Notes under the pieces: generated by a model
Databases searched by the model: none
Told to the model about the DNA's origin: nothing
Seen by the model: only the letters and a program-made list of their open reading frames with translations
Made by a program: the position numbers and the translations under genes
Part shown: positions 60,772 to 64,000 of the stretch, one piece after another
Layout: every line of letters begins with the position of its first letter
How positions within the stretch are numbered: the stretch's first letter is position 1
Virus record (IMG/VR): IMGVR_UViG_3300020416_000001
Coordinates: 107,757 to 171,756 of that record
Length of the DNA: 64,000 nt
Direction: 5' to 3' (one strand)
Source of the DNA: a virus

Positions 60772-61223
60772 GCGTCTATCAAGATCTACGAGACCTAGCA
60801 GACTATAAAGCACAGGCACCATCGTGGTGGAGGAGTCAGTTGTTCTTCTACCTTGCAGGTCGTGGTGTGGATAGTCCTGCACCTGGGTTAGCAGTACAGT
60901 TCCAATACACTGCAGAGTATGCAGAGAAGTATAACTTTTGGGACAGGTATCCCTTGGTCTATGTGATAGGTGAGTCACCGACACACTTTTGGGGTGCCAA
61001 CGTGCACTATCTACCACCTCAAGCACGGGTGTCAGGGTTCACACCAACACCACCTCCCGTTACATTGCATAAATATTTAAGAAGTAATGTTTTATCTCCC
61101 TATTACAACATTGAAAACTCTGAGTGGGCAGATATTGGTTTGATTCCCTCTGAGGAATTTGTTACCACTGTTAATGGTAGAAACATACCAGTACCAACGT
61201 CGGCAGTATTAAAGAGACTCTAA
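60768..61223 (+). CDS. Hypothetical virion-type protein, 151 residues
   Basis: MSVYQDLRDLADYKAQAPSW..., aromatic and Pro-rich, with a beta-like pattern and an IPVPTSAVLKRL tail. It lies between gp4 and the gp54-like gene, with ATGA and TAATG junctions, so likely a tail or baseplate component. I do not recognise a named family. Confidence 0.65.
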   Translation: MSVYQDLRDLADYKAQAPSWWRSQLFFYLAGRGVDSPAPGLAVQFQYTAEYAEKYNFWDRYPLVYVIGESPTHFWGANVHYLPPQARVSGFTPTPPPVTLHKYLRSNVLSPYYNIENSEWADIGLIPSEEFVTTVNGRNIPVPTSAVLKRL

Positions 61224-61942
61224 TGTCATACGCAGCACCTAATTCATTTACACAGTTCAAGGACCTTGTTGCTAGAGGTGCTTGGGAACCGACACGTGGT
61301 AACCTGTACTCTGTGGAGATTGGATTCCCTGCTTGTTTAGGATCTACTGCACTTGGACCTGGGATCCCTTATGACAGAGAGTATTATGATGCTGTAAGTT
61401 ATTTCGCTGATAATATTACTGTACCTTCTAGAAATCTTACCACTGGTGACACACAAAACTTTGGTATTCAGAGATCATATGTGACAGGTCAGACACCTAA
61501 TGAGTTAGCAATATCATTCTTAGTTACCAAGAATCTATGGCACAGACGTTACTTTGAGACTTGGATGCAAAGCATCGCACCTGATAGTGAGAACAGAGTA
61601 TGCTTCTACGACGATTACATCTGTGACATCCTTGTCAGAAAGTGGGAGAGAGGATCTAATTTCCTCGTGAAGAGTAAAGTGAGAGGACAAGAATACGAAA
61701 CTCGTTTGAATAAAGCGACTGGTATCTGGAGATTTACAGGAGCATACCCATTCAATATGGGTACAATGAATCTTGGTAACCAGTCATCAGATATTCTTAG
61801 ACTAGATATTCAATTTAAGTTTGAGCGTTATAGATTTACTACCAAAGAAAAGATCGCAGGTGGGTGGACTAATGAGAAAGTTATAAACAATGTCGATAGT
61901 GTCCTAGATAGTAATGACTTTAGCACCTTTGTGGGCGTCTAA
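61223..61942 (+). CDS. 54: gp54-like baseplate tail tube initiator
   Basis: 239 residues with the tube fold pattern seen in gp19/gp54: an N-terminal FTQFKDLVARGAWEPTRGNL, FADNITVPSRNL, and GAYPFNMGTMNLGNQSS-type strands, ending DIQFKFERYRFT. T4 gp54 has 320 residues, gp19 163. The position near gp48 and gp26 supports gp54 over gp19. It starts the tail tube at the baseplate. Confidence 0.72.
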   Translation: MSYAAPNSFTQFKDLVARGAWEPTRGNLYSVEIGFPACLGSTALGPGIPYDREYYDAVSYFADNITVPSRNLTTGDTQNFGIQRSYVTGQTPNELAISFLVTKNLWHRRYFETWMQSIAPDSENRVCFYDDYICDILVRKWERGSNFLVKSKVRGQEYETRLNKATGIWRFTGAYPFNMGTMNLGNQSSDILRLDIQFKFERYRFTTKEKIAGGWTNEKVINNVDSVLDSNDFSTFVGV

Positions 61943-61972
61943 ATACTTTTACTGAATTGTATATTTTACACA

Positions 61973-62677
61973 ATGCCTTTACCTAAACTGAGCATTCCAG
62001 ATTATGAATGCGTTCTTCCTCGTGGTCAGAAGGTTACTTACAGACCATTCCTAGTAAGAGAAGAGAAACTTCTTTACCTTGCTATGGAGACACAGGACAA
62101 CAAGGAAATGATCAAAGCGGTGAAAGAGATCATCAAAGCGTGTACTAACATCAAGAAACTTGATGACCTTGCTACATTTGATATTGAATATCTGTTCCTT
62201 AAAATCCGTGGTAAATCTGTAGGTGAGGTGAGTGAATTTAAGATCACTTGTCCAGACGATGAGAAGACACAGGTTGATGTCGAGGTAAATCTTGATGAAG
62301 TACAGGTACAGATCCCTAAAGATCATACCCCAATCCTCAAGGTTAGCGATGACGTCACAATCACTATGAAATATCCTTCATTGGATGTGTTTGTGAAAAA
62401 TAATCTAACTGATAACCCAGGTGTAGACGATCTATTCAAACTTGCTGCTAGTTGTACTGAAAGTATTGCTGAAGGCGAGGATGTATATGAAGGAAAAGAT
62501 CATACAACTAAGGAACTAGTTGAATTCTATGAAAATATGAACTCACAACAGTTTCAATTAGTTCAGAAGTTCTTTGAAACTATGCCTAAACTGTCACATA
62601 CGATTGAAGTTTTCAATCCTAAGACAGAAGTTACATCACCTATCGTTCTCGAAGGACTCGCATCTTTTTTCGCGTAG
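61973..62677 (+). CDS. 26: gp26 baseplate hub subunit (T4_baseplate family)
   Basis: 234 residues, T4 gp26 208. The family motif YRPFLVREEKLLYLAMETQD (about 24-43) and LKIRGKSVGEVSEFKITCPD are diagnostic. Its last codons TCT TTT TTC GCG TAG contain a -1 slippery heptamer (T TTT TTC), after which the -1 frame stays open into the gp51-like ORF. Placed directly before that ORF and a tape-measure-like gene, like G/GT tail assembly chaperones. CTAAATAC (about 61939) upstream. Confidence 0.88.
   Translation: MPLPKLSIPDYECVLPRGQKVTYRPFLVREEKLLYLAMETQDNKEMIKAVKEIIKACTNIKKLDDLATFDIEYLFLKIRGKSVGEVSEFKITCPDDEKTQVDVEVNLDEVQVQIPKDHTPILKVSDDVTITMKYPSLDVFVKNNLTDNPGVDDLFKLAASCTESIAEGEDVYEGKDHTTKELVEFYENMNSQQFQLVQKFFETMPKLSHTIEVFNPKTEVTSPIVLEGLASFFA
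62665..62671 (+). other. Candidate -1 programmed frameshift site T-TTT-TTC
   Basis: Heptamer in the gp26 frame (codons 62666-62668 and 62669-62671), two codons before the TAG at 62675. Slipping back one base gives TTT TTT CGC GTA GCC ... and reaches ATG 62698 of the gp51-like ORF in frame with no stop. I see no strong downstream stimulatory hairpin. Confidence 0.55.
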
Positions 62678-62697
62678 CCCTAGCGCACGACTCCTTG

Positions 62698-62871
62698 ATG
62701 AATATGTTTGAGACTAATTTTGCTTTGATGCAACATCATAAGTATAGTCTCACTGAACTTGAAAATATGATGCCGTGGGAACGAGATGTTTATGTGAACC
62801 TTCTTATTCGCTACTTACGTGAAGAGGAAGCAAGACAACGCCAACAGGCGGGACAACATCAATCACTTTAA
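62698..62871 (+). CDS. 51: gp51-like protein, possibly made as a gp26 fusion
   Basis: 57 residues from ATG 62698: MNMFETNFALMQHHKYSLTE, then LENMMPWERDVYVNLLIRYL and a charged Gln-rich tail. The M-P-W-E-R motif is typical of the small C-terminal module annotated gp51 in cyanophages; T4 gp51 (249 residues) is much larger. There is no ribosome-binding site before the ATG, which supports expression through frameshifting from gp26. TAATG junction with the next gene. Confidence 0.7.
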   Translation: MNMFETNFALMQHHKYSLTELENMMPWERDVYVNLLIRYLREEEARQRQQAGQHQSL

Positions 62872-64000
62872 TGGCAAAATCAGCACCCAAGTTAAAGATA
62901 AGAAACTTTCTTCCAGTTAGTACCGCAGGTATTGACAAGATGGATCCTGCTCACTCGTTGACTACAGCAGTCAACAGACTTGGTGATACTGTTACTGATC
63001 TAGGCAAAATAATTGTCAACACACATCAAGCGAGGTTGGATGCTGCATTTGCAGTGCAGGGAAGAAAATCCCTTGCACAAGACAGGGCGAGAGAAGCAAA
63101 GATAGAAAAGAAAACATCAGAAGAGATTGATAATGAAGGTAAGAAGAGAGGCATAGGAAGATTTGGAAGTGGACTGTTTGGTTTCCTAACACCACTACTA
63201 GAACCGTTGCTCAAGTTTGCAGCAACTATAGGTACGTTCTTCGCACTTGACTTCCTATCGAAGAAAGAAAATAGGGAGATGATAACTAAAGCATTTACTT
63301 GGATCAGTAAATGGTTAGGACTGGTGTGGAAGACGGCATCGTTTGGATTCAATCTTATATACGACGGGTTGTTTGACCCAGATGGTAATGACGGACCCAT
63401 AATCAGGGTGCTAAAAGTTATAGGGGGTATCGCTGCGCTCAAGGTCGCGAGTAGGATTTTAATGCCCTGGAAGTTAGCAGGTGATATAGGAAAACTGTCT
63501 AAACTATTCAGAGGTAACAGAAAGAGTAGTGTAAGGCAGCAGCAAGTGAAGATGGATAAAGAACGCTTCTTTAGAGGTAAGAGAGATCCCAAAGGAGTTC
63601 GTTCTGGAAGAACATCTAAGTTAGCAAGGCAGAGATATGCCAGAAGATTTGGTGGTAATGCTGCTAGAAATAGATTTGCAGGAAGGATAGCAGGAAGAGG
63701 ATCATTCAAAGGAATGACTGGTATGGGTCGTTTTATGCGATCTGGTGTTGGTGGAGGTATATTTGCAGGTGCACTTTCATTTGGATCACGACTCGCTGCA
63801 GGTGATAAGATGAATGTTGCAGCAGGTGGAGGTATTGGTGCCACTATTGGTACAGTTGCTACTACTGCACTTCTAACACCAGTTCTAGGACCTTTTGCAC
63901 CTATTGTTGGTGGTATCTTGGGTGGATTTATTGGAGATAAGATTGGAGCATTCATTGGAGAGGCAATAGAACCTGTGCTTGCTCCTCTTGGTGATTTCTT
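62871..64000 (+). CDS. Tail tape-measure-like protein (gp29-like), 5' part
   Basis: At least 376 residues; runs off the window. Basic N terminus (MAKSAPKLKIRNFLPVSTAG), a helical region with QGRKSLAQDRAREAKIEKKT, then several hydrophobic helices (LFGFLTPLLEPLLKFAATIG; LTPVLGPFAPIVGGILGGFI) among Arg/Lys/Gly-rich segments. This is the usual makeup of tape-measure/hub proteins, and the position after gp26 and gp51 fits. The exact T4 equivalent (gp29) is an inference from place. Confidence 0.65.
   Translation, partial: MAKSAPKLKIRNFLPVSTAGIDKMDPAHSLTTAVNRLGDTVTDLGKIIVNTHQARLDAAFAVQGRKSLAQDRAREAKIEKKTSEEIDNEGKKRGIGRFGSGLFGFLTPLLEPLLKFAATIGTFFALDFLSKKENREMITKAFTWISKWLGLVWKTASFGFNLIYDGLFDPDGNDGPIIRVLKVIGGIAALKVASRILMPWKLAGDIGKLSKLFRGNRKSSVRQQQVKMDKERFFRGKRDPKGVRSGRTSKLARQRYARRFGGNAARNRFAGRIAGRGSFKGMTGMGRFMRSGVGGGIFAGALSFGSRLAAGDKMNVAAGGGIGATIGTVATTALLTPVLGPFAPIVGGILGGFIGDKIGAFIGEAIEPVLAPLGDF

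Follow-up and report, generated by a model that had tools for sequence, protein, structure and literature searches.

The window analysed here, 64,000 nucleotides long, spans bases 107757-171756 of a virus record (IMG/VR record IMGVR_UViG_3300020416_000001) with a total length of 171,756 bases. Near its right end the genes are ordered tube, putative TAC and tape-measure-like gene, and the junction between gp26 and the gene usually called gp51 has the following features, with coordinates of the window.

61223-61942, plus strand: tail tube protein gene, 5' of gp26 (phrog_45, E 2e-39)
61973-62677, plus strand: gp26 open reading frame, 234 aa; putative short form (TAC-N, lambda G-like); PF12322 T4_baseplate (E 5e-70), phrog_150 (E 1e-78)
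62651-62656, plus strand: GAAGGA, Shine-Dalgarno-like, 8 nt 5' of the heptamer; candidate upstream stimulator
62665-62671, plus strand: slippery heptamer T TTT TTC in gp26 phase (X XXY YYZ)
62671-62871, plus strand: -1 frame extension, 66 codons and TAA; putative TAC-NC C-terminal domain; phrog_634
62671-62697, plus strand: nine -1 frame codons, RVALAHDSL, 5' of the putative gp51 ATG; purifying selection acts on them in this frame
62675-62677, plus strand: gp26 zero-frame stop TAG, starting at the fourth base past the heptamer
62698-62700, plus strand: ATG formerly read as the gp51 start; non-conserved, probably an internal Met codon
62871-64000, plus strand: tape-measure-like open reading frame, its start overlapping the extension's TAA stop (TAATG); continues past the end of the record

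The 3' end of gp26 reads GCA TCT TTT TTC GCG TAG. An in-frame T TTT TTC before the stop codon and an open -1 frame of nine codons leading to the ATG at 62698 had been described in an earlier note on this DNA, and both are confirmed in the sequence. After the slip the -1 frame reads FF-RVALAHDSL-M... and is open to 62868, with TAA at 62869-62871. Its match to phrog_634 scores 90 bits from the ATG and 104 bits when the preceding codons are included, and the frame additionally matches the end of phrog_150. Other records label the extension 'gp51' or 'baseplate hub assembly catalyst'. The partial open reading frame beginning at 62871 has weak tape-measure matches (phrog_167 and phrog_973, best E 5e-5) and stronger matches to 'endolysin' families. 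We also note that about 25 bases 5' of the gp26 ATG, at 61939-61946, the sequence CTAAATAC resembles T4-like late promoters.

Heptamers of this kind are infrequent in the window: TTTTTTN occurs in phase at just 3 of 17,054 codon positions in the 60 long open reading frames, and its rarity makes it unlikely that chance alone placed one among a gene's final four codons together with an open -1 frame running into a conserved domain. The earlier note had also pointed to the lack of a ribosome-binding site at the gp51 ATG. This is correct, but it is uninformative and was dropped as evidence, since 47 of the 60 long open reading frames, gp26 among them, likewise lack one.

The arrangement is conserved far beyond this phage. 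Eighty relatives with gp26 were collected from IMG/VR, and in each of the 79 whose gp26 end could be read TTTTTTC is followed by an open -1 frame starting FFR(V/I)AL. A gp51-like domain is present in the -1 frame at all 259 testable loci. Across the 192 distinct junctions the heptamer is always in phase and takes solely the forms TTTTTTC (180), TTTTTTA (7) and TTTTTTT (5), and none has a -1 stop within the first 60 bases or before the gp51 domain. A stop codon between heptamer and gp51, or a freely varying heptamer, had been named in the earlier note as evidence against frameshifting, and neither is seen. The loci are kin to one another, so that these counts represent non-independent trials. 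The named phages that have TTTTTT[C/T] at this position, followed by an open -1 frame, come from across the T4 superfamily: KVP40, S13, Ahp1, BUCT608, pf16, Milchi, Mosig, HTVC008M, MA01, S-CRM01, P-SSM2, P-HM1, S-WAM1 and OLIVR5. Of these, KVP40, S13, Ahp1, BUCT608, pf16, Milchi, HTVC008M, P-SSM2 and S-CRM01 are distant from one another.

Several junctions depart from the usual pattern. Four loci fell outside the 259 testable ones, including those of Vibrio phages 1.244.A (L096) and D510 (L097), which have CTT TTT CGC TAA TG and CTT TTC AAG TAA TG, respectively, in place of the canonical T TTT TTC; the -1 frame ATG overlaps the stop codon in both, and these phages may thus have lost the frameshift or retained only a P-site slip. 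In Pelagibacter phage Mosig (L087), and at some nine further junctions, the zero-frame stop is found 31-34 bases past the start of the heptamer rather than the usual 10, which would give the short form a longer unique tail.

The segment that separates the gp26 stop from the ATG evolves as protein-coding sequence in the -1 frame. Among single-difference codon pairs within the window's clade there are 630 synonymous and 79 nonsynonymous differences in this frame, compared with 53 synonymous to 544 nonsynonymous and 0 to 597 in the two remaining frames, and the contrast in the -1 frame is repeated in the whole junction set. The ATG itself is variable; whether it is conserved was among the checks proposed in the earlier note. 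The codon at the position of 62698 is ATG in 16, TTG in 7 and ATC in 2 of the 25 junctions of the window's clade, and across the whole set it is mostly GAG or GAA, encoding Glu; at 60 of the 192 junctions no in-frame ATG comes before the one at codon 19, within the conserved domain. The predominance of synonymous change in the -1 frame, together with the inconstant ATG, indicates that a separate gp51 start is not kept by selection. Judged from sequence, 'gp51' most likely forms the C-terminal portion of a gp26-51 protein of 299 residues that arises by -1 frameshifting.

A different organization is found in T4, where 26 and 51 are distinct genes in divergent orientation and the end of gp26 lacks the heptamer. 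When T4 proteins were compared with a profile of 295 positions made solely from the fusions of frameshift phages, T4 gp26 aligned at positions 10-237 and T4 gp51 at 75-282, reaching the extension; similarly, in PHROGs, gp51 covers positions 13-280 and gp26 positions 14-235 of the 282 in phrog_150. Whole-genome searches found two copies of the family in T4 and one intact copy in each of nine further records, of which seven have the heptamer. These profile spans and the two copies indicate that T4 encodes the two forms, short and long, in separate genes, gp26 being the short form and gp51 running through the gp26-like part into the extension, whereas the phage in the window uses one gene and its -1 frame. 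Vladimirov, Gautam and Davidson have reportedly found frameshifting to be conserved in several T4-like groups, with T4 using genes 26 and 51.

The most probable explanation, to which we assign a probability of roughly 0.93, is that gp26 and the gp51-like frame are a single gene with two readings (TAC-N and TAC-NC) generated by -1 slippage. The majority of ribosomes would end at the gp26 TAG to give a 234-residue short chaperone (TAC-N), and a minority would slip back one base, with tRNA-Phe on the TTT and TTC of T TTT TTC, and read past the TAG in the -1 frame to give a 299-residue TAC-NC with a helical C-terminal domain. Both forms would coat the tape-measure protein, probably the product of the next gene, and guide tail-tube assembly, by analogy with lambda gpG and gpGT. 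The heptamer, the frame, their conservation and the selection acting on them are read directly from the sequence, and the occurrence of slippage, its rate and the chaperone role of the products are inferences. Lambda has a short and a -1-extended product from a gene immediately 5' of the tape-measure gene; here the next gene is tape-measure-like, and the earlier note's comparison with the G/GT pair is supported both by the gene order and by the match of T4 gp26 and gp51 to short and long forms. The lambda slippery site is G GGA AAG, unlike the T TTT TTC seen here.

That the frameshift in this marine cyanophage is genuine is very probable, yet the arrangement is not new, and in this respect the earlier note's suggestion of novelty for T4-like cyanophages is not upheld. 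The chaperone genes of T4-like phages were identified by Vladimirov, Gautam & Davidson (2022, Virology 566:9-15), as cited in PMC10885494 and PMC12846349, and their TAC-N and TAC-NC, as described there, correspond to the same proteins as the gp26 family and the extension here. These sources also state that some T4-like phages, instead of frameshifting, have two TAC genes, one short and one long and fused (PMC10885494), and that polyT sequences are the frameshift signals in T4-like TAC-N genes (PMC12846349). Our literature search found no other paper naming a frameshifted gp26/gp51 in cyanophages. The chaperone locus of the Vandenendeviridae (phage Adele) is similar in having a conserved -1 frameshift, deduced from open -1 frames, at a T-rich site before the tape-measure gene, but belongs to another phage family and has the motif GTTTTT (PMC12846349).

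Other explanations of the junction were considered. One is that gp51 is a separate gene whose translation starts at TTG 62695 or ATG 62698 once gp26 has terminated, through coupling or re-initiation and with no functional slippage. With the ATG present here and in 16 of the 25 junctions of the window's clade, some independent gp51 initiation is possible; start sites are hard to exclude in a phage whose genes mostly lack Shine-Dalgarno sequences, and in KVP40 and F86 an ATG overlaps the gp26 stop. However, most relatives have no ATG at this position and nonetheless keep the heptamer and the nine preceding codons, the latter as protein, and T4 has the same domain fused within a single open reading frame, so that we consider a separate gene improbable as the sole explanation. 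U UUU UUC may be only weakly slippery when no hairpin is present, which counts against the slippage mechanism.

Slippage could alternatively be transcriptional, with RNA polymerase producing mRNAs of changed T number that encode the fusion, and a phase-conserved T run might indeed act on RNA polymerase too. In 180 of 192 junctions, nevertheless, the run consists of six Ts with a C after them, matching the X XXY YYZ pattern. It is accompanied by a codon bias in the Shine-Dalgarno-like element and, in two clades, by hairpins 5 nt downstream, and these two features are known kinds of stimulators of ribosomal frameshifting; we regard polymerase slippage as slightly less probable still than a separate gene. 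A chance coincidence of heptamer and open frame, or sequencing errors splitting one open reading frame, had nothing in its favour and can be effectively dismissed, given the low background of in-frame TTTTTTN and the recurrence of the junction at 259 loci in numerous assemblies and isolates; its conservation already refutes both.

The candidate stimulators of ribosomal slippage differ among lineages. In 111 of 124 junctions a Shine-Dalgarno-like motif precedes the heptamer, usually by 8-10 bases, and the purine-rich GAAGGA upstream of the heptamer in the window may stimulate slipping. The Glu-Gly residues encoded by the element are conserved, and the codon choice is biased too: GAG is used in 59 of 91 cases (395 of 1242 in the remaining sampled gp26) and GGA or GGG in 77 of 123 (101 of 357 elsewhere in the sampled gp26). 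The 60-base region downstream of the heptamer folds more strongly than adjacent segments (mean -10.8 vs -8.2 kcal/mol), and relative to synonymous resamples the downstream region has a mean z of -1.5, with 53 of 136 below -2 at 75 bases. Clade-by-clade folding gave conserved hairpins in two clades, P-SSM2-like (z -6.1) and S-WAM1-like (z -4.4), which are unrelated yet each begin 5 nt past the heptamer. The hairpins of the L089 and L101 clades, 5 to ~60 bases after the heptamer, are AGTATGGCTCA/TGAGTCATACT in one clade and GCGTTAATGCA/TGCATTAATGC in the other.

The window's clade has no predicted downstream hairpin (z about +1), and a hairpin in the window itself was rejected (z about +1 to -1.9). 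RNAalifold found no single consensus structure for all relatives among 47 diverse sequences. The S-WAM1-clade hairpin, when forced on all sequences, gave 55% paired cells, and 24-41% when slid; its covariation did not clearly exceed that of shuffles, and it was likewise set aside as a common structure.

Escherichia coli dnaX has a Shine-Dalgarno-like element 5' of its slippery heptamer, together with a hairpin. The Shine-Dalgarno-like element here is similar, as is the hairpin about 5 nt downstream in the two related cyanophage clades, but dnaX differs in its heptamer and gene, and the window's own clade is without a predicted hairpin. A tentative suggestion, in our view somewhat less likely to be right than wrong, is that cyanophage lineages keep one heptamer and repeatedly swap its downstream stimulator, with the window's clade relying on the Shine-Dalgarno-like element alone and the level of frameshifting tuned per lineage; the ratio of the chaperones would then be tuned per lineage as well. 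Such clade-specific stimulators may be a small addition to the known picture.

The AlphaFold2 model of gp26 is confident (pLDDT 87), and the extension alone is predicted to be helical (pLDDT 79). The gp26 model has no significant structural match in the PDB, a Foldseek comparison giving just a weak hint of the HK97 tail assembly chaperone 2ob9 (E 2.9-4.7, probability 0.09-0.25), and a sequence search for solved homologues found none. In a structure search of BFVD the best named matches of gp26 are gp26-family phage proteins.

Hundreds of records from cyanophages and the T4 superfamily list a small independent 'gp51, baseplate hub assembly catalyst' or miss the gene, and the evidence here is that the annotated gp51 forms the end of a chaperone made by frameshifting. 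The split T4 genes 26 and 51 can then be understood as two versions, one short and one long, of a single kind of gene, and the tail-chaperone ratio becomes open to testing in viruses that are very abundant in the ocean.

Among the individual records, KU686210 (S-WAM1), JN371768 (S-MbCM6), OR003938 (DSL-LC03) and NC_028773 (S13) contain the -1 extension with no separate gene annotated, and further records annotate the extension as a gene of its own, a 'baseplate hub assembly catalyst', but differ on where it starts. We also note that at L007 gp26 is 95% identical to that of the window, and the C-terminal part of the extension is sharply different (WEREVYVTLLVNYIKEKEQSMKEAQNG); from the sequence, this looks like recombination inside the -1 domain.
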